The position numbers and the translations under genes were made by a program. From Kingdonia uniflora (lineage: Eukaryota; Streptophyta; Magnoliopsida; Ranunculales; Circaeasteraceae): a DNA stretch of 64,000 nt. Of this stretch, positions 7,601-62,167 are shown in pieces (the stretch's first letter is position 1; each line of letters opens with the position of its first letter). A model generated the notes under the pieces. The model was not told the DNA's origin. It did not search any database and saw only the letters and a list, made by a program, of their open reading frames with translations. The DNA is taken from assembly GCA_014058105.1 (NCBI GenBank), contig JACGCM010002285.1:248001-312000 (forward strand). The letters are read 5' to 3'.

Positions 7601-7919
7601 GAAGGTGGCGAGTTCGTCATGGGTGTAATTAAAACCTAACTACAATTTAGACCAAAATATAATGAACGTTAGTACCATATATGTAGATAATTTTGAATCA
7701 CTGTGAAACATATACGTCCTGATGGGCTGACCTATATCGTAAATATATAATACACAAAGACAATGAAACCTAATTACAATGAAGTTAGCAATGAAACCTA
7801 ATTACAATGACATAGGTGATCAAAGAAGTTTAAAGTAACAAAACTTCTCCTCCACTCTTTGTCTGTATTGGGGTTCATAAGAAAATTGATTTCAAATTAG
7901 AGACACTGAAGTATTTTAC

Positions 7920-38735: not shown

Positions 38736-38822
38736 TACAGTCGATAGTTCAACCTATGCAACACATTTTGTACCTTAAAAGTCATCAATAAGATCCCCTT
38801 TTGTTGTTGTTCAACTCACACA

Positions 38823-39625
38823 TATACTTACAAAATACAAACCCCAAATATTGGATTCAGTCAATCAACTTGAATCATGCCTGGGGATGAACTCGTTCTC
38901 AAGCCACTTATATACTTACAAAATACAAACCCCAAGTATTGATTTCAATCAATTGACTTGAATCATACATGGGGGCGAGTTCGATTCTCGACCCACTTAT
39001 ATACTTACAAAATAAAAACCTCAAATATCGGATTAAGTCAATCGACTTGAATCATATCTGGGGGCAAACTCGATTCTCAAGCCATATATATACTTACAAA
39101 ATACAAACCCCAAGTATTGGATTTAGTCAATCGACTTGAATCATACCTAGGGGCGAGCTCGATTCTCGAGCTACATATATACTTACAAAATACAAACCCC
39201 AAGTATTGGATTCAATCAATCGACTAGAGTCATACCTCGGGCAAACTCGATTCTCAAGCCACATATATACTTATAAAATGCAAACCCCAAGTATTGGATT
39301 CAGTCAATCGACTTGAATCATACCTGGAGGCGAGCTCAATTATTGGGCCACACATATACTTACAAAATACAAACTTTAAGTATTGGATTTAGCCAATCGA
39401 CTTCTTGGGGGTGAGCTCGATTCTTGAGCCACACCAATACTAACAAACGACAAACCCCAAGTTCGATTCAGTCAAATCGAGTTGAATCATACATTGGGGT
39501 GAGCTCGATACTTGATCTACATAGGTACTTACACCATACTCACCCCAAGAAATTGGATTCTATCAATCAACTTGAATTATCCTGAGGGCGAGCTCGATCC
39601 TCGCACAATATATGTACTTACATAC
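38823..39625 (+). repeat. 88-89-bp tandem array after the integrase of element A
   Basis: tatacttacaaaatacaaac recurs at 38823, 38911, 39000, 39089, 39178, 39266 and 39355, with more diverged copies near 39436, 39524 and 39613. Units include attggattcagtcaatcgac and ggggcgagctcgattct. About ten copies, sitting between integrase and the antisense gene. Confidence 0.95.
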
Positions 39626-39749: not shown

Positions 39750-41881
39750 ACAACAGTGTGAAACTGAAGATCGCTCAGGCGTCATTATTTTCCACCGCGT
39801 CCGTGGCAGAGGGTATTGCTCCTTCGACCAAAATTTATGTCATGCTTGCGCTAGCAAGGACTGAATGGTTAATTTCCAAGTCTTTTTCGACTATCTCTTC
39901 CAGGCCTTTACCCTTAACTCCTTCCAGACCCTATTCGGGCTTAGCCTCCTCAACGCCATCCTTGTCATCCTCTTCGGTTTCATAGTATCGTAGAGACTTC
40001 AGATTGACACCTATCTTGTCCAGATGGATTGCAAGACGATCCATCGCAACCTACTTTTCCTTCACAAGGTTCTGGAAGGTCGCCTTGTTCAAGAGAAGTT
40101 AAACTTCATACCCCGCCAATACTGCATCATACTCACATTCAAAATTTCCTTCGTTTGGTCATAGGCAATATTCAGCTCTTCCTCTTTGGCTCTCACATCA
40201 GTGTCGACCTTTGTATAGTTGGACCTTTTGGCAGACGCTAGAACCCTATCCAACTCGGCCACACATTGCTCGAGCTTGGCCACCCAGGACTCCTCGCCAA
40301 TCTTTTTGGCCAAAACCCGACCCATAGAGAACACCTTGGACATACCCTGCAAAAGCAACATAAGCTGTAAATGGCACATATGCAATTCACAAGACCCTTG
40401 CCAAAAGTAATTACTTTACGTAGTGCACCTCGTAGAAACAAAGGTCGATTTGACGCAACACGGCCCCGGGGTCCTTCTGTACCAAGGCCTCCAGACGATG
40501 GTTGACCACCATAGCTGTCGGGGATAATGAACCCACAATTGGTCGCTCATCTACCACCACCGCACTCGGGCAAGACTCATCCCTTTTCCTCTTCTGTCCA
40601 ACTGAAAAACTCTCCACCTTAATATTCGTCTTAGACGCCTCCCCATTTTTTCCCGCAACCTTTTTCCCCGCAGTCGGTTTGTTCGTGATCAATTTGTCCC
40701 TTACTTCTTGGCAAATACTGGAAAGAGTTCAGTATCTCATTCAGCTGGTCAACATCTGATACATTCGTTCCACCCCCTGGACCCATTTTTCTCCTTCTTT
40801 CGCTTTGTCTCTTTCTTTCCACTGCAACTCCCTTCAACTTGGAGTCCTAGCTGCTGACTCTCACCCTTGAGAACTTTAGCTCAGTAAATATCTTGTTGAC
40901 TCACTCGTCATCTTCAAGAAGGATGGTATCGAGATAGCTCAGCTCTAGCGATATGTTCAAGGGTCGAGGCTCTGCACACACAAAAAATCGTTTGTTGATC
41001 AAACACATAAACCCACATACATTGAGATCTAACAAGAGAAACCTACCAGTTTTGTATACTCAATTATTTAGAGCCAACGCAGGCTCACATAGCTGTTGTT
41101 CCCAACCACCATCGACCAAAACCAAGGTCTCATTCCAGTGTCGACCATTGGTACTCATATCATAGAACCATTGTCGACTACTGTCGCTTTTTACATGGTA
41201 TGTGATTTTCTTTGGATTAAATACCTTTTCATAATAGACGACGATGTCGAGTGACGTTATAGTCAGCTCGCCAACACGCTTTAAATCTCTTTTCAAGGTC
41301 TCAACTACCCACATCATCTCATAAAAATTCTCATTCATCTGGCAAGGGGCAATGTCGAAGAAGTTCAATACCTCCTTTACCAGGTTGCTGAAAGGAATCA
41401 TCATGCCAAGCTGGAGTTGGCCGACATACACGATTCCATGAGGTCGCATAAGTCACCCTTGTAGAGCGTGATAGTGATCAGTGAGCTAACATGAAAAAAT
41501 TTCCCGGTACAACCTCAATTTCTTTTCATAGAAACTCTCTGCTAGAGCATCATCCACATCATCCTCATCATCTCCTTCATCCACCCCCTCGTCATTTACC
41601 TCCTCCTCATCCTCGACCACTCACCCTACATGGGTTACACGTCGATCATCACCTCTAATGCTCACTCAATCGAGGTCATCTTCGGTCACCACACTATCCT
41701 CTTCGACATCAGCCTCTCCAATCGGTCGCGACCGAGATGAACCATATCCTTGCAACCTTGCTAGGGGAGCCGTGTCACCAAAATCCATCATCAATAGGTC
41801 GTCATCACTAGCGTATAGCTTTTGACGACCAGAAGTTGATAGCTCTCTCATGTTAAGATTGGCTATGTCAAAATCTATCAA
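39750..41881 (-). pseudogene. antisense spliced gene of element A (Transposase_28-like)
   Basis: On the minus strand, exon a (41881-41047) opens with an acidic N-terminus and contains QLQLGMMIPFSNLVKEVLNF then FDIAPCQMNENFYEMM and the GRHWNETLVLVDGGWE end. Intron 1 is 41046-40972 (75 bp, GTAGGT...gtgtgcag). Exon b is 40971-40420 (KRQSERRRKMGPGG, SVGQKRKRDESCPSAVV). Intron 2 is 40419-40347 (73 bp, GTAAAG...tttgcag). Exon c runs from 40346 (VFSMGRVLAKKIGEESWVAK, LEQCVAELDRVLASAKRS) to an acidic tail. The domain resembles the Pfam 'putative gypsy type transposon' family (from memory). In-frame stops make it a pseudogene. A minus-strand TATA lies at 42141-42153. Confidence 0.75.
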
Positions 41882-42140
41882 CCTACTTGTAGTGGCATAT
41901 TTTTCGGAAGGAGAATTTTTGCCAATACTTATTCATAAAGAGAATGTAATAAAGACTTAATAGACAAAATTTTACGTGAAAAACTCAGTAAAAGTTGAGA
42001 AAAACTACGACCTCGAGGAGGATTTTGATGTAAAATCCAGTATATTGTTAGTTATTATAAATTTTAGAATGATAGTAGGGATAAGAAGTAATATTGGTAA
42101 AGTTGTGGATTGCTGGGGGGTCTGAATAATCTATTCTCTG

Positions 42141-42153
42141 CCTGTATTTATAG
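42141..42153 (-). promoter_or_regulatory. TATA box candidate for the element A antisense gene
   Basis: Minus strand ctataaatacagg, about 260 bp before the first ATG of the antisense gene (41881). A similar minus-strand TATA lies about 230 bp before the element B antisense ATG. Confidence 0.45.
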
Positions 42154-42199
42154 TAGATACAAGCAGTTTACAAAAATAAAGAAACAATCTTCTATTTCG

Positions 42200-44990
42200 G
42201 GGGGAGTGGGCAAACTTCACGGATCTCTAACAGCTCTTTCTTGACCAAGTACAATGGCTATTTTTGATAGGTCGAGGACTTGTGGGGCCTTCGATCATGT
42301 ATGGCTGTCTTCGACTACGTTTTACTGGCTTACTCTTGTCGAATCTAGGGAATATGCTAATTCATTGGCCTCATTCTCGACAAAAGTATTTGTGGTTGTG
42401 TCGAGAAGAAATTGAAAGTTGAAGAGGTTGCCGAATTTTATCACGAGTCGTTATTGTCATTTTCGAGTTCAAAGTGAACTGTATCTGGTAGGATAATTCC
42501 CGAGTAGCAATTAATACGATACAATGAAACAGGCAGACTGAAGTTGGGAATAAATAGAGGGTTTAAGGAGGGTGTGATGGTGGTAGTTTAGAAGTATGTC
42601 ACCCCAACTGTGGTCTAACGTGTTGTCTGAGGCTGAAGATGGTAAATAACCTGAGGTAAAGCTCTGTCCCAAATTGGTTTTTTATAATCCCTCAGTTGAT
42701 TATGTCACGGCATGGGGGGTAGAGAGAGGTAGAGTCAGAGAAGATGTGTATCTTTACACACTTGTGTCATCATGCGGTGTTGAAGGTAATGGAATGCATC
42801 AGTTTGGGGAGAAGGGATAACTGTTCGTGTTGAAGATGAGGATATGAAGCTTAGATGGGTGTCTAGGGATCTTGCCGAATGTAGGGGGTTTCTTACATTT
42901 TTTTACTGCCTTTTATCTGTGGAAGCATCTCTTAGAAGTTCAGTGACTTGAGATTCATTGAGCTTCTTTTATCTGTGGAAGCATCTTTTATTTGTTGCTC
43001 CTAGTGCCAAAAATAATGCCAGATTTTGGTGAAAGAGGTTTTAATGTCAGATTCTGGCGAAAAGAAAGCACAGAGTAATTAGTCCTGTAAGTCGAATATA
43101 AGGATAGTATTGTAGTTTGATGTAATGTAATCGAAGGATATAGTGATCGAATGTAATATGTAACAATTTGTTTATTAAATAATGATATTTGCTTTGACTT
43201 TTGCTCTTTTTGTTTATGTTGTTGTCGACTATATATGTTTTCATCATCGAAGGCATCTGTGAGTAAAGTGAGTGTTGGAATGTATAAACAATACGAAGTA
43301 TAGTTTTTCGAGTGGGTCCAGGAATGGATTTCGAGGTTGATATAGGTGACTGTTGAAAATGTATAGTTCTGAGGTGAATTTAAAGTTGGTTGGTTGACTT
43401 TGACTGTGCAGTGGTATAAATATTCCTTGCTGTTTGAAGGAGAGTCATTCTGGTTGAGGAGATGGTGAAGACGAGATTGCAGGCGTGTAATGAGGTATAT
43501 AGTCGTGTGCAAGCGAAGTATTGAGAAATATATGGTAATTATATCAGACTCCTTCGGAACGTGTATATTCACTTGGAGGATCTTGTGGAACCCGAAATAT
43601 AGAGGTTTGCAAATTTGATAGCAATGGGTGGGGGCAAGAGATGAGGGTATGTGATTATGGTAAAGTGTTTTCCTTTGGGTGAAAGTTGGGAATATAAAGA
43701 AAATGATATGCAGTATCTTTGTGAAAAAATTAGGTATGCAATATTAAGTATGGATGTTGCAGAAGAAATTCTTCGAGATATGAAAGGGTTGGAAGGCGAA
43801 GGGTCAAAGACTTTAAGAAAAGACGTGCGAGGCGTTACCCTCGAGTAGTGGAACGATTGCAAAGCAGTGCGATGAACAGTCACGTGAGGTCTATAAATAG
43901 CTCAGGTGTGGGCTACTGTTCACATTTTACAAACTCTAAAGAAAACTTGTCCAGTGCAAATTATCTGCTTTCGTTACTAGGAATATTGACAATAATTGGG
44001 AAGGAGGAGATTGTCGTGTTGATCGAAAGAGCAAAGCGGGTAAGAGAGAGGGATACAGAAGCAGCGAGGTTACAAGGTTAGTAACTACTTTGGATTTACA
44101 TTGTTTTTTGCTTGGTTCTTGTTGTGCAATAGTTGATGTAGATTGATATAGGGTAAATGTAGATGGAAATGTGTATCATGAGGAGGATGTGTTTGTAGAT
44201 TTGAAATGGGGTTAGGGTTTGTGACACTGTGAATGGTGTGTTTTTTGATGGTAATGGAGTTGCAGTGGTTAATAAAGGGGATTGTAGGGGATGATTGGGC
44301 ATAATTGATGGTGAGTGGTGGAAAGAGAACTATTTGCGGGACGGTGGAGATTCCGTGATACTAGGTATTTAGTTGGGTTGACGGCGAGGAAGTTGGGATT
44401 TTGTGCCCAAGTATTTTTAGATTATTGCCGGAATTGTCACCGGGAAAGGCGATATCCGTCGTTTGAAAGTTTGTTATTTTGGCGGGAAACAGTTCGAGTT
44501 TCTTCGAGAACTTTTGATTTTCTGAAAGTGGAGCAAGTAGATATTAAACAATTGCTTGATGTTTTAATTATAATAAAAAATAAAAATTTATCGAGAACGG
44601 AACATAGTGCAGTAGTCGATATATATGACTTGGAAAAGTCATATAAGTGTATCTAGAACTTCACATAGTAAACAAATTGTAATAATTATAGTAGCAGACA
44701 GTTCGTTGAGAATGATATGTTGGAGAGTATTCTCGGCAACTATACGAAGATGAATAGATGAACTTATGAGCATATATACGTATCAAATATGATACTGTGG
44801 AAAAAATATTGAATCTGATTTACAGGTTCTTTAAAAAGGCTAAACCAATTCAAAATGATAAGAAAGATATATATGCGAATCTTGAAAATGTAGTGCCCCT
44901 GATGATTGACGTAAGGACATGTGTAAAACAGTTGGGAGGGAAATATAGGGTAGGGTCGAGTAGTGTAGATCTAGGTAGCGTGAAATAGTT
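42200..44990. other. unresolved retroelement-derived region between elements A and D
   Basis: A and D face each other here. I could not find an LTR of either. The DNA keeps the TCGA-rich flavour of the elements (cctcattctcgacaaaag). TATA-like strings on the plus strand: ggtataaatatt at about 43413 and ctataaatag at 43891-43900, either of which could drive the D antisense gene. A 194-codon open frame on the minus strand (42988-43572) has no motif and odd composition, so I do not call it. Confidence 0.5.
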
Positions 44991-44994
44991 TAAG

Positions 44995-46933
44995 GTGTCA
45001 CCTAGGGTTGTCGAACTATCTGATGAAGAGGCTATGAAGACGGATGTGGATCACGAGCCCCTAGCTAGTGATCGAATAGGTAGTGGGGATAGGAAAGAAG
45101 ATGTGGAGGAGGGTAAAATGATCGACCAGGAAATACCTTTGAATGGGATTCTGGTTCATCGAGAACAGATTAAGAAAGGGTTGAAACTTCCCCTCAGAGC
45201 TGACCAGACAAAGTTGATAAACTTTTTTGATGCAGCACCTGGTCAGTTCAATCCGAATGTATATGATTTATTTAGGGTATGTGGGGCAATAAATGGTCGA
45301 CTTAAGGCCAGGGGGGAGGAATTGATAACAGTCGATGATTTATGTGTGTACTACATGCTCAAGATGAACCCGCAGAAAGTAGGTTACTGGTACTTGGCGA
45401 GGTTTCTCAAGGGACCATTGTTTTATGATATGGTGTCAACTGGGGGGCGATACACTGATGAACGCTTACTTGTTTCAGGGAATTATGAGTTCAACAAGAA
45501 GGCCCCGGGGAGCCCCTAAAGAGAAAGACCTTTAACTTAGGTTTGTGGTTAGGTAACTTTAATTGTCGATTTTCGAAGTGTTTGAATGGGATGTGTATTG
45601 TTTATAACTATTTTTTGTTGTTTGCAGCTTTGAAAGAGGTCGACAGGAAGTCAGAAGTAAAAGAAGAGTTGTATAAGGTGAACAAAGATTTCTTTGGTAG
45701 GATCGATAATTTGGTCATCGACCAAGATCGCGTGAGCACTCTATTCTAAGAGGCCGGTTTAAAGAGGTCGAGGGCTAAAGGTTTGAAAGTGCCTGTTATC
45801 GACGGAAAGATGTCGGCAAAGAACAAGAGGGCCGCAAATACTAGCTTGCCACTGGAAAATCCTTCCTTGTCCGGGTATAACACTGATATAAAGATAGATG
45901 CCATGTTTCAAGAATTTCTAGGAAAGAGTAAGAAGAGGAGGGTGGTGAGCTATGATGTTCCTCCGATGCTTCCTCACAAGAGGCTTACTTGACAGTCAGT
46001 AATAGAGGAGGTGGCTGGTACCGCTAAACCAGTTGTTGTGGTGGATGGGCATCCTCCATGGGGTGCGGGCAGTGTGCTCCCAAAGAGAGTGTTGGTGGTG
46101 AGACGTCGAAGACAAAATTTGTCGAAGAGTCTGAGATGGAAATTCAGAAGACCATGGACTCCAATGCGTTTGGGACGGATGAGATTAAGATAGAACTGGA
46201 GGATTGTTTGGTTGGCATTGATAGTTTGAATACGTTTTTCAGCAAGGGTCAGAGAAATATGTCGAAGGTGAGAAATTTTAATGCTTTGCTTCGATTGAAA
46301 AAATTGGTAAGTCACTCGAATACTCATTATATGACTTTGATGTAGATCACGAAGTTGGTGACTGACGCCATAGACCGTATTGTGGGCAGTAGTGATATGG
46401 AAAATTAACATGTGGCCTATAAAAATATAAAGAAGGATTTGATCAAGGAGAAAGCTGGGTTGAATGCAACGTTAAATAGGTACAAGCTGGAGGCAAAAAA
46501 GTGGAGGGAAGTTGCGCTTTGTGAAGCGAAGAAAGTGTCAGAGAAAGATAAAAAGAAGGCTTTGGCATTGCAGAAAGCCAATTTTGATAAGGATATAAGG
46601 GAGTAAGTTCCCGATGCATGGAAAGCAATGGAGGTAGAGCAGGGCAAGCTTCTCGGCGAGGTAAGGGCTCAGTTGAATGCATAGAAACTGGAAAGATGTA
46701 GGGAAGTAAGGGCTCATTTCACAAGACAGTACGAGGAGTTGGAGGAAAGGAAAAAATTCTATGATAGCTCAGAAGACGAAGTACCCGAGACTCCCGAAGT
46801 TCACGGTGAGACGGAAGCCATCGATGATATGATGATAGAAGATGATACTGCGCACCTTAGGGAGGTAGCTGGTGTACAGGTACCCGAAGGTGCTCTAAAT
46901 GTGAATGAAGTGATAACTCCTCCTGTAGTATAA
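44995..46933 (+). pseudogene. antisense spliced gene of element D (Transposase_28-like)
   Basis: Lies opposite to element D. Exon a (to 45540) has an acidic N-terminus, then [60 protein letters not shown] and [19 protein letters not shown]. Intron 1 is 45541-45627 (87 bp, GTTTGT...tttgcag). Exon b (45628-46306) is [20 protein letters not shown] and KRRVVSYDVPPMLPHKR. Intron 2 is 46307-46345 (GTAAGT...gatgtag), only 39 bp and probably shortened. Exon c (46346-46933) is a charged coiled coil (LKIKAG..., [20 protein letters not shown]) and an acidic tail (SSEDEVPETPEV). The true start is unclear; the first ATG in frame is about 45031. Several in-frame stops in exons b and c. Confidence 0.75.
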
Positions 46934-47100
46934 AACTTTTTTGTAAGCAGTATTAATATGATGGAAGTATGTAAAAATGGTCAGTGGGACCAAAATAATT
47001 TTATTTGTGTGTGGAATGATGTGGTTTCTATTTGAAACTTGAAGTTTTGACTTTGCGTATATAGAATGAATCTTGTTTGATAAGAATAAAGATGATTCAT

Positions 47101-47720
47101 TGTCTGATGCAGATTGGTAAAGTCTAGATCGAGATCAAGTCAAAATAGGAAAGATGATTGATTGTCTCATGCATACTTGTTAAGTATGGATCGAAATCAA
47201 TCCATAATAGTAAAAATGCTTGATTGTCTGATGCATACTGAAAGTATGGGTCGAGATCAATTCAAAATAGTAAAGATGTTTGATTGTCTAATGCATACTG
47301 GAAGTATGGATCGAGATCAATTCATAATTAATAGTAAAGATGTTTGATTGTCTGATGCATACTGAAAGTATGGATCGAGATCAATTCTTAATAGTAAAGA
47401 TGTTTGATTGTCTGATGCATACTGAAAGTTTGGATTGAGATCAATTCATAATAGGAAAGATGTTTGATTGTCTGATGCATATTGAAAGTATGGATCGAGA
47501 TCAATCCAAAATAGGAAAGATGAGTAATTGTCTGATGCATACTTGTTAAGTATGGATTGAGATCAATTCTTAATAGTAAAAATGATCGAGTGTCTGATGC
47601 ATACTTGTCAAGTATGGATCGAGATCATTTCAAAAGTAAAGATGATTGAATGTCTAATGCATACTTGTCAAGTATGGATCGAGATTATGTCAAAAGTAAA
47701 GAGTAAATTGATAGTAAAGA
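47101..47720 (-). repeat. 60-62-bp tandem array after the integrase of element D
   Basis: tgtctgatgcatac recurs at 47101, 47163, 47225, 47285, 47349, 47409, 47469, 47529, 47591 and 47651. Units also contain agtatggatcgagatcaatt and ataatagtaaagatg. About ten copies, in the same slot as the arrays of A and B but unrelated in sequence. Confidence 0.95.
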
Positions 47721-47756
47721 TTGTTTATTTGATTGGATGAAAACGGTTACAATGTT

Positions 47757-48870
47757 TATTTGTAAAATAGTTTCAGTTGAGCAGTATTCCATGGATATTC
47801 TAACAGGATTTTGTCTTTAGTCATCAGCCAGTAAGTGCCATTATTTATTTTATCGCTGACAATATATGGCCCTTCCCAGTTTTCTAATAACTTTCCTGAA
47901 TTTTTAGGCCGTGTGATCTTGAATTCGTCGAAGGACAAGTTCGCCAATGCCAAATTTACTTTGGCAAACTCTTTTGTTGTATGCTTTTTTCAATGTATCA
48001 TGGTATCGCCCCAAGTTTGTAATTGCTCTATCTCAGGTATCTTCTATCCAGTTGAAGTTGCAGAGGAGACGGAGTTCATTGTCTTCATCTAGGATCTTTC
48101 TTCGGGTACTTGGTAGGTCAAGGTCTGAAGGTATGACTATTTCAGTACCAAAGGCTATCTTGAAAGGAGTGCAGCCTGTTAAAACTCGAGGAGTGGTTCG
48201 GTAAGCCCAGAGAACACTGAGTAGTTTGTCAACCCATCTTCTTTTTTTGTCCTTGTTGTCGAGACACTTTCTTAAACCTGATTTGATGCTTTTGTTAATG
48301 GTTTTGGCTTGTCCGTTGCCTTGAGGATAGTATGGTATGGATGTTGATAGCTGAACTTTGTATTTATGGAGGAAAGCAAGTACTTTTGCACTGATGAATT
48401 GCTTATCATTGTCAGAGCGTATCATTTGTGGGCAGCCAAACCTTGTGATTATGTGCTCCCAAAGTAACTTGATAACCTTATTCTCATCAGTATGGCATAG
48501 GGGAACGGCTTCAACCCATTTTGTAAAGTAATCAGTGGCGACTAGCACGAATCTTCGGTTACCCGAGGCTGGATGGAAAGCTCAAATGATGTCGATCCCC
48601 CTGCATTTGAATGGCCAGAGGACATTGCTAATATGTAAGTCGAGGGCTGGACTTTTAATGTCATGGGCATGGATTTGGTATTTGTAGCATTTACGGACAA
48701 AATATTCGCAGTCCTGTCTCATTTTTGGCCAGTATAGGCCTTGTGTGAATGCACGTTGAGCTGACGATCTTCCTGAAATGTATGCGCCACAGATACCCTC
48801 GTGAAGTTCTCTGATTTTGATCTGAGCTTGTTTGTTAGAGATGCATTCGATAAGTGGCCCTCCTCCGGTT
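47757..48870 (-). pseudogene. integrase of element D
   Basis: Integrase core in a long frame (48548-48033): LVATDYFTKWVEAVPLCHTD, FGCPQMIRSDNDKQF, then GNGQAKTINKSIKSGLRKCL, SVLWAYRTTPR and FKIAFGTEIVIPSDL. The two Asp positions are kept, but the catalytic Glu of the usual GQAExINK reads Lys. The zinc-binding part is partly readable near 48700 (VRKCYKYQIHAHD). The C-terminal end is at 47953-47757 (GKLLENWEGPYIVSDKINNG). Dead by the Glu to Lys change and stops. Confidence 0.85.
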
Positions 48871-49189
48871 ATTCAGTATAGGACTTTGCCTTGAACTGTG
48901 AATCTTGGGCATTATGCCAAAAGTGATCGGGCGTCTTCTTTGTTATCTGGGTGGATATTAGAGTAGAGGTAGGCATAAAATGGTTTTCTTCAGGGTCTTC
49001 CTCTTCAGCAATGGATATTTGGAGTGTTGATAGTGCATCGATACTAGAATGCTCGATGATCTCGATTTCTAAAGATCTTTTTTTACTGTCTCCCAGCATT
49101 GCAGCGATGTAGGCTAATACATCGGTATGCTGATTTTGTTGGCGAGGTAAGTAAGAGATTGTTGCATGTTTCAACATTTTCATCTTTTC

Positions 49190-49500
49190 CTCAACCAGAG
49201 CCGCATAATCAACCATCTTTCTCGTTGTGCAGAATGTCTTGTTGTAATGATTTTCCCCGAGTAAAGAATTAACATAGACGGTTGATTCTTCGGCACCGAG
49301 GGATAGTGGGAGATCTAGACCGTGGAGGATTCCTTCATATTCGATCTCATTATTGGTGGTATAGAAGTTTATCTTTATAGTTTTCTCGATGCGATGATTA
49401 GAAGGTGTAACGAGGACGATGCCAACCCCTGATCCTAGCGGTCCAATTGACCCATCTATAAAAAGTCGCCATCCCGAGCTTTTGGACTATGCGTCAGGTT
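49190..49500 (-). pseudogene. second (archaeal-type) RNase H of element D
   Basis: WRLFIDGSIGPLGSGVGIVL, then TNNEIEYEGILHGLDLPLSL, is the Tat-type extra RNase H; the Asp of IDGS and Glu of EYE are kept. It is followed by KMVDYAALVEEKMKMLKHAT and the connecting LPRQQNQHTDVLAYIAAML block. A few stops. Confidence 0.8.
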
Positions 49501-49925
49501 CGGCTTTTGCATCATCGGTAAAGATTTCTTCGAGTTTTTCCCAACCAGGGTCTTCAACCGGAAAGTCTGCCAAAAAGTCAACGACTGCTTGTCCTTTGAC
49601 TGATATTTGTACTTCGAAGGAGATGTCGAATTCGCCAAGGAATACAGACCATTACTGAATTCTATAAGATTTCTCTTTTTTTGGAAAGTATCAGCTTGAG
49701 AGGATACTTGGTGATGATTTTAATAGGATGAGATTGAAAGTAAGGACGAAGCTTTTGAAAAGACGACCAGGGAGAGTAGTTGTTTTTCTGTCGTTGTGTA
49801 TCTTTTTTCAGCAGGCATGAGTATTTTGCAAATGAAGTAGATTGGCTTTTCAACTCCTTAATCTTCTCTAATAAGGACAAAACTAATTAAATCTTCAATT
49901 GTGCCATTCACTGAGAGGGGACGAA

Positions 49926-50669
49926 TGTAGTAGCCTACTCACAGCTTTTTGTCCCAGTCAAACACTTGAAGGCTACTTCAAAGCCTACTTAAATGTCTCG
50001 AAGCCCATCCAATCCTTAAACAATTCTCCCAAAGATTATCCGAAGACGAAGCCTCGACTCTGAACAAGCCGCGAAGACGAACTCCACATCGTAGCAGAAA
50101 CACTTTGACCATATCCATACATGGTTAAAGTATGACAGGACAGATAGCCAGCTCACTAGACAAGACGACAACGTTATTGGTCCTTTCAGCTACAGTAACA
50201 GACCCAATAATTGCTATACTGTCAGAGTACAGAAATAGACCCAAAAACTATTGCAGTGACAGCTCCGACATTTCCGGCGTCAATACCAACTCTGGGAAAC
50301 CCGCTCAATATTCGGATGGTACTCTTGTAATGTGACCTAACCTTGGCGACTCAGCCCTCCCTATGTTCTATAAATAGGAGAGATGGGGAACCAAGGAGGG
50401 GTTACAAAATCCCTCTCCGGAGCCCTTACTGATTGCCTTCGATCACCTTGTAAAACCCAGCACTCGAATCTTCAACTACTCGACAGAAATATAAATACTC
50501 TTAAAAATCCTTATCAGAGGTCGTGAAGAGTCACATTCTAGGCCTCCATGCAAGTATATTATCCGTAGATTAATTTATCTATAGGTTATATGCTTGATTT
50601 CCTTTGATAAAGGATTAACCCCATGGTGTAAGAGTTGACTTCCCCTCTGCTCAAAGTTAGGCCCCTATA
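49926..50669 (+). repeat. left LTR of element B
   Basis: TGTAGTAGCCTACTC to GGCCCCTATA (the other copy ends CTACA). TATA box ctataaatag at 50368-50377. Unusually it is preceded by ctgagaggggacgaa, the same polypurine string that precedes the right LTR. Confidence 0.92.
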
Positions 50670-50687
50670 TTTGGCGTCGTCTGTACT
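50670..50687 (+). other. probable primer-binding region of element B
   Basis: tttggcgtcgtctgtact follows the left LTR directly; compare tttggcgccatctgtact in element A. Confidence 0.65.
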
Positions 50688-50754
50688 TCCCACCCTACCA
50701 ATCTCACTTTCTTATTTCCCTCCCTTTGTTCTCAATTTCAACAGATTATTCTCA

Positions 50755-52410
50755 ATGGCACCCACCCTCCATTCAAGTTCTACCCATGCCGACAACTCTA
50801 TCGATGAAGTGGCCGCCCAAATAGCCTTACTTTCTCAACAATTCGCCCAAGCCAAGGAACGCCACCATGCACAACTTCACAGGAATGTGAAAAACACCGG
50901 TAGGAATTCAAAACAGAACGACATCGCCATCTGGACGATGCCGACGGGCAAAATTGGGCAATTAACGAGTTACGCAATACCGTCAGAGAGTTGCAGAGAC
51001 TACAACCTTTGGACGAGGCTCGACTATCCCAAGCACCAGACCCGTCGCACGTGTCTGTCCGCGCCCGTCTGGGGCCCCTACCAAATCTCAAAATACCCCC
51101 AGTCCATATCGGTGCCGAGGGTGTTCCCCACACTATTCCCCCTACTGGCTCTATCTATCTCGGCATTTACCCCACCGAAGATTCCTCTGACTTCACCCTC
51201 CGTTCATCCAGACACCCCAAACGCCACTCTGCACGAGAACGTCTCGAGGAGTACAGTGTAGAATACATACCACACACTCAGACTCATCATCCTCGAACCC
51301 TCCGATCACCCCCTCCTCTTGCCTATGCTGCACAACAGGACTTCAACTACAAAATCCAACCTGTCATCTACGCCAATGCGAGTCCGGCACCAAACTTATG
51401 GAGTCGATTGAATAATCTCCTTTGCCCTAAACTCCTCACCATCGAGATACCTCCAAATTTATCTGTTCCCAAACTCACCAAATACCGTAACACCGAACCT
51501 TAATCACACATCCTCGAATTCTAAAATGCTCTGAGCCTCTACTCCACAATCGACCACCTGATGTGTTGCCTTTTTCCCACCAGCCTCACCGACAGCCCAC
51601 TTCGATGGTATCACAATCTCCCTAATGGCTCGATCCAGAGTTTCGAGCAACTGTCACTGTTTTTCATCGCCCAATTTTCCTTCAATAAAGGCAAAGAGGT
51701 CAGAGTCGATGCCCTCTTCAATTCCAGAAAATCCAGTAGTGAAGCCCTTGAAGCCTTCATCTAGAAGTTCCTTGACGAGTCGTAAAAAGTCGAGAGCCTT
51801 GACTGCGCGAATGATGTACTCGCGTACTAAATTGATTTACCAGATCACATTCGTGTTAAAGAGTACCTGGTCCTCCATAAACCTCGAACCCTCGAGGAGA
51901 TGCTCTCAAAGGTTAATGGCTATATCGACCTTGAGCCCCTTCACGAATCTCGTAAATAGGAGCAACCTTCAGCCACCAACTTCAATAAACCTCGACAAGG
52001 CCTACCTTCTGACCCCACACCCCTGATCGCTCCCATCTCACAGGAGACTGAGAGCCACAAATGCCATCACAATGAGAACAATGCCAAAGTTCGCAGAAAG
52101 TGGCCAAAGCCGGTCCTACCGATACTTATTGCCCCTCTTAGCACCCTTCTAGCACATATACAGGCAGATCCCATCTAGCGTATCCCTTTCCCCATTAAAG
52201 TCAAACCAGGTAAACCTTACTGCGCCAATCACAAGTGTAACTGCCACCTCACCAGAAAATGCATTACCCTCCAGCGCTTTCTCGAAATCATCCTCAAAGC
52301 AGGTCGTCTACATCAATATATTGCCGACCTTCCCAGTTACCTTGACGGGTCCTACCTCAAACCTCAACCTGCCCCTACTGCCAACCCGGCCGAGGTGCAT
52401 ATCTACTGAA
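50755..52410 (+). pseudogene. gag remnant of element B
   Basis: ATG at 50755 opens MAPTLHSSSTHADNSIDEVA, AQIALLSQQFAQAKERHHAQ. The gag core is at 51561-51770: LTDSPLRWYHNLPNGSIQSF then FEQLSLFFIAQFSFNKGKE. The 3' part continues past EMLSKVNGYIDLE (about 51900), in changing frames, to the protease. Frameshifts and stops throughout. Confidence 0.8.
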
Positions 52411-52544
52411 TAAATTTTATCAAAGTTAATAACATAGACAGCGGCCGTTCTAAGAGCAAGCGCAAGCATGTCAAAGAATGCCACAAACTCACCTACCAGG
52501 AGAAGCTGCCCGCTCTCCTACCAGGATCAAGCCTCTCCCCTCAA

Positions 52545-52960
52545 CCCGAAGGCATCTCTTTCATCGACTGTGATACATCCCATGTCTGTTTTCCCAATTC
52601 TGATCCATTAGTCATCATGATTAAGATCAAAAACCTTGTCCTCCGTAAAATGCTCATAGACACAGGAAGTGTAGCTGATGTCCTTTTCCTCCAAACTGTC
52701 CAAACCATGAAGAAAACCGACCTCGTCACTGCTGCCAATGTCGAACTCAAAGGTTTTAATGGGGCCACAAAAGTTGTTGTTGGTCGAATCAGCCTCCCAG
52801 TTACCACCGGCCCAGTCACATTCCAAACCTGCTTTCTTGTTATCGATAAGAAGTCTGAATACCTTGGTATCCTTGGGCGCGATTGGCTCCATGCCATGCA
52901 TGCCATACCTTCGACCTATCATCAGACCCTTCGTTTCCCCCCCCCTTAGGTACTTAGAAT
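52545..52960 (+). pseudogene. aspartic protease of element B
   Basis: LRKMLIDTGSVADVLFLQTV keeps the catalytic D-T-G, followed by VELKGFNGATKVVVGRISLP and SEYLGILGRDWLHAMHA. This domain is readable in one frame from about 52617 to 52946. The flanking links to gag and RT are broken. Confidence 0.85.
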
Positions 52961-53229
52961 TAAAAAGGCTCTCAATGGCTCGCTCGTTCATGCGAGCATC
53001 CAAAGATCGATCAGATCCAGGGGCTCGTCAGCCGCCCATAGCAATCACTATCCCTTTCTATCTCCACACCGTCGACAGATGTCACCTCACCCATCGAACC
53101 TACAGTCTATATCAAACTCGACGGTCCTGGTCGAGGCACATTTATTGGATCTTTTTTAGACGAGCCAGAACCCCTCGAGCTCTCATATTTCCTTCGAGCA
53201 AACAAAAATGTCTTTCTATGGACGTTCAG

Positions 53230-54510
53230 GGAGATGTCCGGTGTCGACCCCAGTTTGGCATGCCACCACCTCGATCTTATTCCCCATTCCACAACAGTTA
53301 AACACAAGAAACATACCTTGACACCTCGACATCGAGAAGCAGTAAACCTTGAAGTTGACAAACTCATAGCCGCAGGTTTCATCGGAGAAGTGAAGTATAC
53401 TGATTGGATATCAAACATTGTTGTAGTTCCCAAAAAGAATGGCAAGATCGGGATTTGCGTCGACTTCACAGACCTCAACAAGTACACACCGAAGAACAGC
53501 TTCCCCCTCCCGATCATCTTAGTACTCTAATACCACTGCTGGTCATGAGCGTCTGTCTATGATGGACGCAACTTTGGGTTACAATTAGGTACCTCTCCTC
53601 CTCGAAGGTCAACTTAAAACTTTTTTCATTAATGAACAAGGCCTTTACTGTTTTAACATCATACCATTCGGCCTTAAAAATACGAGTGCCACCTATCAAC
53701 GCCTTATCACGACCATGTTAAAACCCCTGCTTAGCATGTCGGTCGAAGTTTACATCATCGACATGTTATGCAAGAGCCTCCAAAAATAGACCCACATTCA
53801 GGACCTAACTGAAGTCTTTTCGATACTTCGATCATACAACATGAAACTGAACCCAGACAAATGCAAATTTGGTGTTTCGTCTGGTAAATTTTTAGGCTAC
53901 CTTATCAGCAAGCGAGGTATTGTGATCGACCCAACCCATATACGAACTCTCATCGACGTACCTTCGCCCCGAACCAAAAAAGATATCAAAAAAGTGGCTG
54001 ATAAAATTGCGGCCCTCAACCGCTTTATTTCCAAATCCTTTGACCATTGTGCTTGGCTCTTCTCCCTCTTACGCGACCAAGGCATCCCCAAAACAAAAAA
54101 GAAAAATAACCCTGAGATGAACTGGACACCCGAATATGAACATGCCTTACTCGAACTCAAAGCTTACCTTGGTCGACCACCCATTATCAACACCCCCATC
54201 GATGGTGAGGCACTCTCTTTATATCTCGCTGTTACAGACACCTCCATCAGTTCAGTACTTATTCGACTCGAATCAAACATCGAAAAACTTGTATATTTTA
54301 TCAGCAAAACTTTAACACCTGCAGAAAGTCGATATTCAAAATTTGAGCGCTTGCTTCTCACCCTCATCTACTCATTCCGCAAACTCAAACCATATTTTCA
54401 AGCTCACCCCATCCGTGTTATAACAAGCTACCCCCTTCGAGAAGTGCTCAACAAAAAAAGAAAAATCCAAAAGAGTGCAAAAGTGGTCTATCTACCTTGG
54501 TGAACATGAC
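53230..54510 (+). pseudogene. reverse transcriptase and RNase H of element B
   Basis: 53234-53530: VDKLIAAGFIGEVKYTDWIS, KKNGKIGICVDFTDLNKYTP. Then a frame change, MMDATLGYN, QGLYCFNIIPFGLKN, and the catalytic box reads VYIIDMLCKS, so one of the two Asp is lost. 53841-54503 is open: PDKCKFGVSSGKFLGYLISK, WTPEYEHALLELKAYLGRPP, LSLYLAVTDTSISSVLIRLE, PAESRYSKFERLLLTLIYSF, KPYFQAHPIRVITSYPL. The RNase H part is therefore almost intact. Confidence 0.9.
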
Positions 54511-54559
54511 ATCACATTCGAGAAGTGCTATAACAAACAGTAGCAGATTTCCTTGTTGA

Positions 54560-55385
54560 CTTCCGAGTCGAAGATGTCGATTGGGAAGAACATGAAGATG
54601 ATCTGACAGAAGACTAGCCCGAAGTATCAGATCCTTGGAACCCTAACACTGGATGGTATATATTCACAAATGGATCCACTGGGCTCAGCGGTTCAGGGAT
54701 TGGTATAGTCCTTGTTACACCTATGAATGATCGAATAGAGAAGGCAGCTAAGCTAAACTTTGAATGTTCCAATAACAAAGCTGAGTATGAAGCTCTGATA
54801 CATGGCCTCGACCTCGTACTCAAACTCGGCATTCCCAAACTTGTACTTTTCACAGATTCCCAACTAGTTTAGAAACATTACACTGGCGAAAATTAAGCAA
54901 ACGGACGCATGGCCGAATATGCTCTTTTCGTTCGACAACGCATGGACCGTTTTCCTGAAAAATCTACTATCACTCATTACCCTCGAGGAGAAAACCGACA
55001 CGTAGATGCCCTCACCTACATAACAGCTATGTTAGGCCAATCAGAATCCCGAACCCTCCATATCGAAGTACTCGAACGCCCAAGTATCGACCAGATGGAA
55101 GTCAATGCCATCAATACTGGGGGAGAGAGTCTCGATCTAGACGACTGGCGAACACCATTCCTCTATTACTTTAACAAAGTTTCCCTCTTAGTTGATCCCA
55201 AAGCCAAACGATCATTATTAGAGAACTGCTGTAGATACACCATTCACAAACATGAGTTACATCGCAAATCCCCAAATGGCGTCCTTCTTCGATGCATTTC
55301 TCAAACCGAAGCCTCTAAAATTCTAGCCAAACTCTTCCAAGGGACCTACGGTGCTCATACTGTTGGCCAATCTATGGCCCTTTGA
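54560..55385 (+). pseudogene. second RNase H and linker of element B
   Basis: WYIFTNGSTGLSGSGIGIVL then NNKAEYEALIHGLDLVLKLG is the Tat-type extra RNase H. The catalytic Asp of IDGS reads Asn (TNGS). The linker to integrase (54909-55385) is open: MAEYALFVRQRMDRFPEKST, YPRGENRHVDALTYITAMLG, and the DGVLLRCIS-like region near 55290. Confidence 0.85.
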
Positions 55386-56303
55386 GCCATCTCCCAAGGT
55401 TTATTCTGGCCAAACATGAAAAAATAAGCCTAAGAGTATGCCAAATACTGTGAAAAATGCCAGTATCACGCCCACGACATCCATAGTCCTTCACAAGACC
55501 CCATTTCAGTCAAGTTTCCTGGTCGTTCAAAAGATGGGCTATCGATCTCATCGGTCACTTCCCTAAAGCCTTGGGTAGTAGAGAGAATATCCTTGTTGCA
55601 ACAGATTACTTTACCAAATAGGTCGAAGTTATGCCTTTATGCCGAACCAGGGAAAAATAAATTATCAAATTTTTATGGGAAAACATCATCACCCGTTTTG
55701 GATGCCCTCATATGATTCGATGCGACAATGGGATCCCCAGTTCGTCGGCAACAAAGTTAGAAATTTCCTCAAGAACCATAACATCATCCTCTCCCCCTCA
55801 GCACCTTACTACCCCCAAGGCAGTGGTCAAGTCAAAGCTATCAACAAAACCATAGTCGACGGTCTCAAGAAACAACTCAACGCAAAGAAAGGTCGATGGG
55901 TTTAGGAGTTACAACATTTCTTCTAGGCCTATCGAACAATGCCAAGAAAATCCACATGCTGCACCCCTTTCCTTAGAGCTTATGGTACTGAAGCAGTGCT
56001 CCCTACTCAATTTGAAGTACCCACACGAGATCCCATCCTCCCAGACGAAGATAATGAGTTTGAACTCGGATGTACATGTTATGGATCGATGAGACCAGAG
56101 ACCGAGCCATCGCCAACCTTGGTCGTTACCATACATCACTTCAGAAGTCAGACAACAAGCGAGTTCGAGCACGAAGTTTCAACATCGGAGATCTTGTACT
56201 TCGACGTGTCAACCAATCTTTGAAGCCCCGAAATGCCAGCAAGCTCACCGTATCTTGGGAAGGACCTTATGTCGTTTATGAAAAAATCGACAAAGGTTCA
56301 TGA
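55386..56303 (+). pseudogene. integrase of element B
   Basis: Zinc part CEKCQYHAHDIHSP (about 55450). Core pieces ATDYFTK (stop at the Trp position) and MIRCDNG, where one extra base (gacaatgggatccccag) shifts the frame. Then PYYPQGSGQVKAINKTIVDG, where the catalytic Glu reads Lys as in element D. C-terminal part at 56070-56303: FNIGDLVLRRVNQSLK, KLTVSWEGPYVVYEKIDKG. Dead. Confidence 0.85.
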
Positions 56304-56447
56304 CAGAAGATAACGAGCCTCTACCACATCCATAGGGCACAATACACCTGGTCTCATACAATAGGCCACAACCTCCATCTTATACACCTGATGTAAATAC
56401 ATAATAATCAATAAACTATTTTTCCTCCTATAAACTTCGTCTCCTGT

Positions 56448-57055
56448 TTTCCAGTAAATTTCTTGGTTAATCCTAGGTATCATATCAACCCTCAACCCGA
56501 CTGATTCTTGGGGGCGACCCTGAAAATTTTCAAACTCCCAATTTCGAGCAAACTCGAGTGGCAAGGATGGTTAATAGACCAGACCCTCAGAAATGTATTG
56601 GGGGAAACAATTATGCTTCGATCCGGTTTAAGCCGTCGAAGTCCAATCGATTTCTTGGTTTCCTCTAAGTATCACGTCAACCCTCGACCCGACTGATAAT
56701 TTGGACCGACCTTGAAATTTTCAAGCTTCCAACATTCGAGCAAACTCGAGGGGCACGAATGGTCGAAAGATCGGACCCACGAGGATGCGTTGGTGGTGAA
56801 CATGTATCACTTCGCTGTGGCTAAGACCTTCGAAGTCCAGTAAATTTCCGGGTTTCCTCTAAGTATCATGTCAACCTCGGCCCGACTGATACTCGGGGGC
56901 GATCTTGAAAATTTTCAAACTCCCAACATTCGAACAGATTCGAGGGGCACGAATGGTCGAAAGACCGGACCCTCGAGAATGCATTGGGGGCGACCACGTC
57001 TTACATCGCTATGGCTTAGGCCATCGATGTCTGGTTAATCTCTTGGCTCAAGCAA
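56448..57055 (+). repeat. 192-193-bp tandem array after the integrase of element B
   Basis: cgaccctgaaaattttcaaa recurs at about 56515, 56707 and 56900. Units contain tcgagcaaactcgag, gaccctcgagaatg and gtatcacgtcaaccctcgac. Three copies, in the same slot as the arrays of A and D. Confidence 0.92.
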
Positions 57056-57470
57056 ATTATCATAACTATCTCGACATTCTTCAAGGTTTGATCACTCTAC
57101 AATCATTCGACATTTACAGCATACGTAGATACAAGTATATAGAAATATCTTCAATCCTACCACATGTAAGAAGTTTCAGAACAATAAATATCAGAGAAGC
57201 AGTTTCAACAAAAATCAATCCAAATCATGCTCTTAATAAATCTCAAGAATCTAGCACAACAATTCAATACAGATCAAGGTCACACAAATCAGTCTCAAGT
57301 GCAGTCCACAAACCAAACAGAATCAGTACAGTACAAGTCAAATTCAGTACAATACCTTAAGACAATCACAAGTTCAAAGATCAACTCCAAAGAAAGATAA
57401 ACATCGTTCAAACATTACAACCCAACAGAAAATAAATAAAAAATAGGCATGGCACTCCAGTACAAATGCC

Positions 57471-59644
57471 TCATATCGGCATGGCTGCATCTTCTCCCCC
57501 AACAGGTTTTTCAGTACTAACACCTTTAGCACCCACAGTAGAAGGTTTCGACCCTGCACCATCGGCGACCATATCAGTTGTAGCTCCGGCAGCAGGACCT
57601 TCGACCACAGGAGCCTCCACGCCACCTCCAACACCTTTATTAGTAACATCCACCTCTATCCCTTCGGTTAACAAAGTATCTTCAACAACAGGATCTTGGG
57701 TATCAGGCAAGCGTTGCAGAGTTATAGGATCAAACCCCATATCCTCTATGAGCTCCTTTATCCTAACATTACCCAAAACTTCAACATCATATTGTGCTTG
57801 GTAATGCTCTTTTAGTGCTTTCTTTTCCTTCTCATGATTAACAAACTTTAACCTCAGTACCTGTTCATGATTGAAATGTTGACCCTCCAGTCTCTTCTCG
57901 AATGCATCATTGATGCCTCCAGATCTCGCTTCAACTTATTATTATCAGACAACAACAACGCTTCTGTCCCCCGAGCAAGCTCTAGACTGTCAATCACCTC
58001 CCGTAACCTCCTCTTTCCTACTTTTACTGCCTTGTTGTAGGATTGTGCCCAAGCATCCATCTGATAGAGTATTCGAGCTGTCAGTACTTCTCTAAGCATG
58101 AAACACTTAAGAATTTTTCAAAATTTCACACGCAATAATAGACAGTTACCTAATACATACTCCTTTTCATCTACCTCAAAGCCTCGTCTGGGTCAGCATC
58201 ACAGATCTCCGCCATCAAAGCAGCCTTGGCTAGAGCCTGTTCTTCTCATTCAGCCTCCGTCATCTCTTCGCCCTCATCCTTTGTATCATCTTCCCCCAGC
58301 GCCCTGTGCCTTTTGCGCTTCATTAATTTTGTCTGTTGTACCCTCAGAGACTCGGGAATAACCTTGTATTTCCCCTTCTCAGCCTGTGTTGGTACCTGCC
58401 TCAGCCTCAGTCTCGAAGCATCACTAGCCACTTTGGGCACTGACACCGCCTGCTTTGCCGCCCGCTTCGCCTTCAGAACTTACTGAACCTTCTTCGCCAA
58501 ATTATCATCCTCCATGCCTTCGACTACCATTAAAACACCTTCGCCTCCCCTCTTCTTTGATGGCTTCGACATGAGGGGTATATTTCGAAGCAGGGAATCT
58601 ATCTTCTTCTTCCTTTTCCTCTTGATACCAAGACTCTCGAAAATAGAATTCACCCACTCCTCGTCAGAATCGAGTAAAGTGTCAATATAATCCCTCGGAT
58701 TCTCCCAAGACCGGTTAGTCGGACCTGCAGAAAAACATAAATATAATCACCGTTTATTCGAGCAACACATCAAAAACATCTTCAACATAAAACTTACTCG
58801 GGTTATAAACTTTATGATGTAACCTGTAAGAGCCCTTTCCTTCGACATTCTCAAAATTACCCTGTACCACACCTAAATTCTTATTCCGCCCTCGACCCGT
58901 CGAGCACAGATCAAACAACCTGGGCTTCTCTGGGTAGCACTGGATGTGGTACGTACCCACATTCTGGTTCGTCTTCCTCACATAGAATGATACCACATCA
59001 TACCACTCAATTAAACCCCTCTTCTTACTCCTTAATTTTATATTCATCTGAAATTTCCTTATCATCTCGTAAAAATTTCCATTCATCTGAACCGGGGCAA
59101 CTTCCCAAAAATTTAACACCTCCTTCACCAGCCTAAGGAGGGGAAGTTGCATTCCTAGTCAAATTTGACCCCTGTACGCCATTATCCCCTCTCGAGGGTT
59201 TGACTTGAAAGATAACCATGTTCCCGCCGCACTCAACACCACCCCAACCTTCAACAGCTGCAGCTTGGCAGCAAATCGATCTAATCTTACCTTATCTCTA
59301 GCTGAGACAGAACCGTCGGCCTTATCCAACTCAGCCGACTCCCCACTATCATCACTTAGCTCCCCTCCTCCCCTCTCACCACCTGAAGGTCTAGCATTAC
59401 CTTTGTTTCTCTCCCCTCCCCCTATCTCTTCCTCATTACTATCCTCAGTTACGATCGTCTTACGACGTCTAGTATTCGAAACCCCATTTGCCGGCACCAC
59501 CACGGCTAACGGGACATCAGTTACAGCATCTAATACTTTTAAGTCGCTGCCCTCATCCATCGGAGCACGGCCAGAAACACTAGCCTCATTTTCTTTGACT
59601 TTCTCATCTATCAGCCACATTCTCGAAGCTCGACGGGTACGCAT
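57471..59644 (-). pseudogene. antisense spliced gene of element B (Transposase_28-like)
   Basis: ATG at 59644 (MRTRRASRMWLIDEKVKENE). Exon a (59644-58798) is acidic at first (EDSNEEEIGGGER), then after a stop has MQLPLLRLVKEVLNFWEVAP, VQMNGNFYEMIRKFQMNIKL and EWYDVVSFYVRKTNQNVGTY. Intron 1 is 58797-58725 (73 bp, GTAAGT...tctgcag). Exon b (58724-58175) begins GPTNRSWENPRDYIDTLLDS and is Lys-rich. Intron 2 is 58174-58092 (83 bp, GTAGAT...gcttag). Exon c (58091 on) is EVLTARILYQMDAWAQSYNK, AVKVGKRRLREVIDSLELAR, a coiled coil, then a frameshifted tail ending near 57471. Minus-strand TATA at 59874-59884. Same exon layout as in A and D; few stops, so the best-preserved copy. Confidence 0.78.
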
Positions 59645-60880: not shown

Positions 60881-60971
60881 CAAGAATCCCTTATTTATCA
60901 TCGGGACGCTTCTCCTCACTCCTAGCCTCAGCAGCAGAATCCTTCTGCCCCACCATCTCTTCCGCAAATGA

Positions 60972-61235
60972 TTATAGTAAGGATAATCGATGGCCCAAAA
61001 ACGGACCCATCATCTGAAGAATCCCCCACCAATATGCAAAGGACATTCCAGCAATGGGTTCCCCAGGTTCCGCTTCAAACAGGTCTGGCATCTCCGCATC
61101 GATATCTTGATCATCAAAAAGCCTCTGTTTCAGCTCCAACGTCTTTTCCTACACTCTAATAGCCTTTGCTGCAACCCGGTCCTGCTGATTGGCCTTGGAA
61201 GAATTGCCGCTATTTTGGGACGAAGAAGAAGACAT
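60972..61235 (-). pseudogene. small antisense ORF x2 of element B
   Basis: ATG at 61235: MSSSSSQNSGNSSKANQQDR, one TAG after AAKAIRV, then LELKQRLFDDQDIDAEMPDL, FEAEPGEPIAGMSFAYWWGI and an end at GHRLSLL. It is related to ORF x1 nearby (ELK..F.D...D..MP.L.E.EP.EPI.G.S). Function unknown. It lies about 1.3 kb upstream of the large antisense gene and on the same strand, so it could share a transcript with it. Confidence 0.5.
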
Positions 61236-61927: not shown

Positions 61928-62167
61928 TCAGGTAAGGTAACGTTTGACAACAGTAGTAAAATGAAACTTTATCTGCCTCCAGAAGTGAGAATAGGACTCC
62001 CCGTTGATGGGTTCCACAGGCTCCAACTCCACCAGTTCAGGCATGTCCCAGTCAAGTTCATGGTCACTGAAAAATTTTAACTTCAACTCTGCGGTCTTCA
62101 GCCCTATACAACGGTCTCTGGAAAATCCTATCCTCTGTTGGTGGCGAGTGTTAGGCGTGGTATCCAT
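61928..62167 (-). CDS. small antisense ORF x1 of element B
   Basis: ATG at 62167 gives MDTTPNTRHQQRIGFSRDRC, TAELKLKFFSDHELDWDMPE, LVELEPVEPINGESYSHFWR and a stop after VVKRYLT, about 79 residues. The frame is open upstream to an ATG at 62242, but the MDTTP start agrees better with where similarity to x2 begins. Acidic in the middle (ELDWDMPELVELEPVEP). No known family recognised. It ends about 700 bp before x2. Confidence 0.5.
   Translation of the reverse strand: MDTTPNTRHQQRIGFSRDRCIGLKTAELKLKFFSDHELDWDMPELVELEPVEPINGESYSHFWRQIKFHFTTVVKRYLT

Follow-up and report, generated by a model that had tools for sequence, protein, structure and literature searches.

Antisense genes in three Retand-like elements

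A 64,000-nucleotide stretch of the Kingdonia uniflora genome (contig JACGCM010002285.1, positions 248,001 to 312,000 of the forward strand), which we call the window, holds three long terminal repeat (LTR) retrotransposons of the gypsy type, here named A, D and B. All three are Retand-like Tat elements, and each carries, antisense to pol, a protein-coding gene located between pol and the 3' end. Gene A (39773..41884, minus strand) retains an N-terminal part, a core resembling the TRP28 domain (41063-41452), exon 2, a coil and a tail, without a clear start codon; gene D (44989..46933, plus strand) retains the core (44989-45516), exon 2, the coil and an acidic tail; and gene B (57471..59644, minus strand), with its core at 58757-59158, has Kingdonia relatives along most of its length. 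The window copies of all three genes are decayed, with in-frame stops in the frames that we read (seven in A, five in D and five in B) and frame breaks as well.

The strand of pol was taken from Pfam matches. The reverse transcriptase region of A (35702..36352, plus strand) matches RVT_1 with 64.4 bits when stops are read as X. The pol of D lies on the minus strand (48033..49486), where an integrase core at 48033-48578 matches rve (52.7 bits) and an extra RNase H at 48869-49486 matches RVT_3 (27.5 bits). In B, pol is on the plus strand (52410..55199), with a protease (gag-asp_proteas, 26.1 bits, below the cut-off), an RNase H (RT_RNaseH_2, 60 bits) and an extra RNase H (RVT_3, 58.9 bits, again with stops as X). 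The preliminary description of this locus had put the three genes at these places and opposite to pol, and the matches bear this out. The orientation is also typical of the B family: among 20 B-family loci, an integrase was found within the downstream 4.5 kb in 15, on the opposite strand in 15/15.

The cores are homologous to one another. In phmmer comparisons, A and B matched with 63 bits, A and D with 58 and D and B with 43, against 14.2 bits for the best of 6,000 shuffled cores, so that the shared core reported earlier holds up. It is the sole part that is alike in sequence across the three. Outside it, the one similarity detected links A with B, where exon 2 begins (20.8-22.1 bits versus 14.9 for the best shuffle). 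Apart from that stretch, the other parts said to be shared, namely the Lys-rich part, the coiled coil and the acidic tail, resemble one another among the three genes in composition and not in sequence.

The resemblance to PF04195 (Transposase_28) noted earlier holds. PF04195 was the sole Pfam family that the A, B and D cores matched at E ≤1 (21.6, 13.1 and 12.3 bits), but its curated cut-off of 26.2 bits was unmet by every sequence scanned, the best being A. Matches below the cut-off were also obtained for P0001-P0003 among the four proteins of one set of predicted relatives, for 2/18 members at E 0.05 and for the extended B sequence, and in the 7/10 genome copies that matched PF04195 at all it was the best match, always below the cut-off. 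A PF04195 search of the Kingdonia genome gave 0 matches, which is uninformative because 14 control genomes also gave 0.

Protein searches for wider homologues returned 4, 0 and 15 proteins, 18 of them distinct and all labeled Kingdonia uniflora, and a search of viral contigs gave none. Five of the Kingdonia models (P0007, P0010, P0013, P0015 and P0017) join pieces of the antisense gene to unrelated domains of kinase, Hsp70 or methionine synthase type; these fusions are probably annotation artifacts. Element B has two further coding modules on the antisense strand, both upstream of gene B. The first (60897..61235, minus strand) matches a part of P0005 with 69% identity (E 8e-42), and the second, related to it (61931..62167, minus strand), is 53% identical to P0014 (E 1e-14). 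In the models P0005 and P0009 such a module is fused to a TRP28-type protein, and the two modules may belong to the same gene as further exons or be accessory genes in their own right.

Two likely introns on the antisense strand

Coding in these genes does not run as a continuous open reading frame (ORF). Two likely GT-AG introns on the antisense strand interrupt A, B and D at matching places, intron 1 directly after the core and intron 2 further on, with intron 1 in phase 1 and intron 2 in phase 0 in all three. Gene A has intron 1 at 40972..41046 (minus strand, 75 nt, ranking first by splice score among 515 GT-AG pairs) and intron 2 at 40347..40428 (minus strand, 82 nt, rank 4/515), which is outscored by a shorter form that uses the same acceptor. 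In gene D, intron 1 is at 45553..45627 (plus strand, 75 nt, rank 1/507), its phase being taken from relatives, as the reading frame of the window copy is broken at that place, and intron 2 at 46268..46345 (plus strand, 78 nt, rank 8/507). Gene B has intron 1 at 58725..58797 (minus strand, 73 nt, GTAAGT...TGCAG, rank 2/629) and intron 2 at 58061..58149 (minus strand, 89 nt, rank 6/629). The splice score is a simple one based on the splice consensus; by this score, the two top candidates of each gene that do not overlap each other either are the called introns or overlap them.

Plant introns are T-rich. The T fraction of the six introns was 0.36-0.49, and hardly any non-intron stretches of the same genes reached the fraction of the corresponding intron (for introns 1 and 2, 0/1729 and 0/1708 in A, 0/1789 and 0/1741 in B, and 0/1521 and 2/1512 in D). 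Predicted Kingdonia proteins cross the same joins, P0004, P0006 and P0010 at intron 1 and P0004, P0005, P0006 and P0007 at intron 2, these joins coming from gene models and not from transcripts.

The splice sites are also kept in genome copies. For this count, and for the selection analysis below, we used the 30 best B and the 30 best D copies of the 1.0 Gb genome that contains the window (2,693 contigs); a first look had given 19,688 candidates and 150 scored copies for the B core, 21,927 and 150 for the D core, and 22,707 and 150 for the A core. The donor and acceptor dinucleotides were kept in 28/30 and 27/30 B copies for intron 1 and in 29/30 and 28/30 for intron 2; in the D family the corresponding counts were 29/30 and 26/30, and 28/30 and 26/30. 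Other GT/AG dinucleotides in the copies were kept in a median of 24 and 20 of 30.

The earlier claim that a whole gene is conserved across the three elements thus stands for the homologous cores and has to be qualified for the rest: each gene is split by two likely introns, all of the window copies are broken, and D is partial.

Purifying selection on the antisense frame

In this genome, purifying selection has acted on the antisense frame of both families, B and D. The comparison of nonsynonymous and synonymous substitution rates (dN/dS) that the preliminary description had called for was made with 30 genome copies of each family, and gave a median of 0.183 for B (435 pairs) and 0.096 for D (405/435 pairs, the other 30 being saturated). 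The uncorrected proportion of nonsynonymous differences (pN) was below that of synonymous differences (pS) in 435/435 pairs in B and D alike, and the ratio drops as dS rises.

The copies were retrieved by protein similarity, which lowers dN, and we therefore tested selection again on parts of the gene that had not been used for finding copies. In B, differences at codon positions 1 and 2 relative to position 3 came to 0.78 (0.66-0.93) for the N-terminus in exon 1, 0.78 (0.68-0.90) for exon 2 and 0.53 (0.41-0.70) for exon 3, and in D to 0.49 for exon 2a, 0.57 for exon 2b and 0.55 for exon 3. Between the three window genes we preferred a frame-blind DNA alignment, as a protein-guided one favors a codon-position signal. 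Identical nucleotides were found at 164/320 first, 198/319 second and 122/318 third positions (Fisher p 1e-7, from three pairs that are not independent).

These results bear on whether the antisense gene is a passenger, that is, part of another mobile element that inserted here and has merely been carried along. The name of the Pfam family points that way, and the available text of PMC11963269 discusses such an insertion, while doubting it. Sustained selection within the B and D families argues against a present passenger state, however, as do the matching introns in three genes, and we regard this explanation as extremely unlikely. We conclude instead that the antisense gene is a true accessory gene, kept by selection and of a kind described before. 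The core similarity and the purifying selection together give good support to a role in the life cycle of the element, as had been proposed.

Features of the antisense protein

The predicted product has an acidic N-terminus, a helical TRP28-like core, basic patches and a long coiled coil. In the structure predicted for P0006 (mean predicted local distance difference test score, pLDDT, 60.0), short helices in the core are followed by one helix at 230-250 and another at 252-341. A profile search against the sequences in PDB returned a single match (E 0.16) and no solved relative.

The preliminary description had suggested a gag-like role for this protein; in such a role it would help to build particles or package RNA. 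Such a role fits the observation that the elements multiplied while the protein stayed conserved. The scanned antisense pieces match no gag family, however, in scans that did not include a direct comparison with gag, and no capsid fold came up in the structure search, which used weak models. The suggestion thus found no support, and we think it quite unlikely that the protein is structural.

Promoter candidates

Upstream of gene D, a TATA box at 43892..43899 (plus strand) is a candidate internal antisense promoter. TATAWA occurs within 60 nt of this place in 22/30 D copies, and the identity of the 9-mer is 0.83, versus 0.39 across the aligned stretch. A shared promoter feature upstream of A, B and D, CTATAAAT, was considered and dropped, the box in B being nearly private to the window copy. 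Most B relatives carry a GTAAGT-like sequence at the place of the B box, which is perhaps the splice donor of a leader, but the exact word CTGTAAGT is present in no more than 14/30 B copies and a matching acceptor in no more than 17/30. In the copies of B and D, a promoter box is thus supported for D only.

The D promoter candidate bears on a further possibility, that the protein has a different task in the copying cycle and helps to bring the pre-integration complex into the nucleus or steers integration. A role of this kind has been proposed in the literature (PMC7264820, in the portion available), and the basic patches and the coiled coil are compatible with it. We found no link to integrase or capsid, however, and a separate antisense promoter in D would uncouple the protein from gag-pol expression, so that we consider this role rather unlikely.

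Structure of the locus

Gene B lies within the LTR pair of element B, between pol and the 3' LTR. The 5' LTR (49926..50667, plus strand) and the 3' LTR (62427..63169, plus strand) are 87.7% identical over 764 columns, with a Kimura two-parameter distance of 0.136 over 741 sites. A search for further LTR pairs found none, either for A in the stretches that were compared or for D within the window. The domain order of B is RNase H (53790-54500), extra RNase H (about 54690-55010) and then integrase downstream of 55384, the last placed by similarity to A and D. D has the extra RNase H followed by the integrase, an order of Retand type. In A, an extra RNase H gave no match in the three frames scanned. 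The placement of an extra RNase H after RNase H and before integrase is shared by Ogre elements (PMC6317226, in the part of the text available).

Element B is nested in the pol of D, which is visible only in part for this reason: past the 3' LTR of B, D-type reverse transcriptase sequence resumes, as judged from a motif that we read ourselves. A copy of the purine-rich stretch that lies before the 3' LTR of B also precedes its 5' LTR. By eye there is no obvious target duplication (49904-49925 and 63170-63180), and part of D's pol is seemingly missing at the join, which seems to reflect an unusual insertion or a later rearrangement.

Each element has a tandem array of its own at the place where pol and the antisense gene converge. 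The array of A (38817..39602), flanked by pol and by the end of gene A, has nine copies of an 89-nt unit, that of D (47080..47685) about 10 copies of a 60-nt unit, and that of B (56450..57046) three copies of a 194-nt unit. The octamer GGGGGCGA, which resembles a polypurine tract, occurs on the plus strand at 38971, 56510, 56895, 56986 and 62418, that is, within the arrays of A and B and in the purine-rich stretch that precedes the 3' LTR of B; with a sixth occurrence in gene D (45443), the window has six where 0.59 are expected.

The arrays sit where two transcripts would converge, which would suit a role for the antisense RNA itself, feeding or dodging silencing by double-stranded RNA, with the reading frame incidental. 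Antisense transcription can yield small interfering RNA (PMC7264820, in the part available). The strong purifying selection at the protein level already disfavors this explanation, and we judge it very unlikely.

In the left part of the window, two pairs of duplications are 93-95% identical (6909-7855 and 17286-18233; 9812-10078 and 18386-18652). Just left of the elements, the translation of 31485-31757 (plus strand) resembles, by eye, the final part of a formate-tetrahydrofolate ligase gene.

An over-represented word, TCGA

Of all 4-mers, TCGA has the strongest over-representation in each of A, D and B, with observed/expected ratios of 2.29, 2.47 and 3.01. Its density is 8.3-10.7 per kb in the three elements, versus 1.74 per kb in the comparison DNA, the 31 kb at window positions 1-31000, where the ratio is 1.00. 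It ranks first among 4-mers in the loci of the B and D families as well (2.81 and 2.19). The excess extends over coding sequence, introns, arrays and LTRs in the three elements (33100-63169). The word reaches its highest density in the antisense introns, with 14.3 and 11.7 per kb; in the coding cores it exceeds synonymous shuffles (86 versus 45.6 in B, 97 versus 55.5 in D). The arrays of A, D and B hold 16, 9 and 15 occurrences versus 2.8, 3.4 and 4.7 in dinucleotide shuffles, although these counts and the z-scores for the word are inflated because copies and array units are not independent. The integrase and extra RNase H of D have no excess (7 versus 8.4). Retention of CG at TCGA was not clearly higher than elsewhere (0.66 versus 0.61 and 0.78 versus 0.60, from 11-35 sites), and the phrase "TCGA motif" was not found in plant retrotransposon papers among the matches listed.

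The enrichment provides a concrete candidate for a DNA target. The TRP28-type protein may bind a TCGA-centered word that is scattered across its own element and dense in the arrays and antisense introns. Protein and word would then be a putative self-recognition pair by which the element stays open in the face of host silencing, a retrotransposon counterpart of VANC in the VANDALs, which are DNA transposons. We offer this as a speculative suggestion that is unlikely to be right as it stands.

Role of the antisense gene

The reading that we favor, by a modest balance of probability, is that the gene encodes a nuclear coiled-coil protein, made from a spliced antisense transcript, which would act on the DNA or chromatin of its own element. 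In live copies, the antisense gene would be transcribed toward pol from its own promoter and then spliced. The introns could outlast the cycle of RNA copying because the pol-sense genomic RNA would not carry them in spliceable form. The product would enter the nucleus, self-associate and act on the DNA or chromatin of the element, thereby controlling its expression. These steps are proposed from the sequence and its predicted features.

Several of our results weigh against this reading. The PF04195 cut-off is never reached. The structural models are weak (mean pLDDT 46.9 for the D core, and for P0006 the score given above), and in Foldseek searches of PDB the D core and P0006 models gave 10 and 7 matches, none at E ≤0.001. 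Stop-free copies do not differ from broken ones in pN/pS. The introns do not behave like neutral introns: their divergence is below that of third positions (0.206 versus 0.239 and 0.311 in B, 0.279 versus 0.370-0.409 in D), and mean column identity is 0.829 in introns versus 0.826 in exons in B, and 0.800 versus 0.770 in D. The length of exon 2 differs by non-triplets in 11/30 B and 22/30 D copies, and length variation in the introns is therefore not diagnostic. The best splice scores on the other, pol-sense strand are 7.8 in A, 10.9 in B and 9.8 in D, so intron 2 of B, with a score of 8.0, is not distinct by this measure. Near the place of the B box, TATAWA is present in 1/30 B copies.

Taken together, the observation in the preliminary description is partly confirmed and its interpretation partly supported. 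The evidence of selection, together with an exon-intron structure that matches across three diverged families, marks the gene as an accessory gene and not debris. The introns supply exact junctions from which expression can be read in strand-specific RNA, and they suggest one benefit of antisense placement, in that they need not be lost when pol-sense RNA is copied. Retand elements are widespread in flowering plants.

Comparison with known systems

The antisense arrangement is not new and has already been described as a hallmark of Retand elements (PMC11963269, PMC7264820, in the parts available). In the available text of Vicient 2025, antisense ORFs with a TRP28 domain (PF04195) are reported in all but two of 63 clusters of recently active Retand elements (97%), and tandem arrays in about half of the clusters; DNA binding is predicted for the domain and a regulatory role suggested (PMC11963269). 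The accessible part of Neumann 2019 gives the domain in 23% of Retand elements (PMC6317226). The Kingdonia genes agree with the Retand antisense ORFs so described in their position between pol and the 3' LTR, their antisense orientation, their TRP28-type core and the arrays nearby, and differ in being split by two introns and in matching PF04195 below the cut-off (PMC11963269). In that study an ORF finder was used, and the text available contains no mention of introns. Antisense introns in such genes were likewise absent from titles and the beginnings of abstracts among the matches listed, with most of the subscription literature, the papers on Grande and Retand among it, outside our reach. 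The matching exon-intron structure in three diverged genes is new with respect to the published Retand descriptions that we consulted.

Vicient and Casacuberta 2020 review the antisense ORFs of Grande (gene23), RIRE2 and Retand (PMC7264820, in the part available), and report that gene23 of Grande has its own promoter and a nuclear protein. Our genes resemble gene23 and the antisense ORFs of RIRE2 and of Retand in Silene as antisense accessory genes, a comparison made by description only.

Two more distant systems are similar in some respects. As far as the available text of PMC5735166 goes, VANC proteins in Arabidopsis bind a short word clustered in their own transposon's tandem repeats, where they bring about a loss of methylation. 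The likeness, which we take as a lead only, is in an accessory protein gene and a short word that is raised across the element and in its arrays. A difference is that TCGA in Kingdonia is also raised in coding DNA. The genes HBZ and APH-2 of deltaretroviruses (cited in the accessible part of PMC11963269) share an antisense position near the 3' end and have a nuclear regulatory product, as we propose for the Kingdonia genes; we claim no relationship, and unlike those genes, D has its candidate promoter inside the element and not in an LTR.

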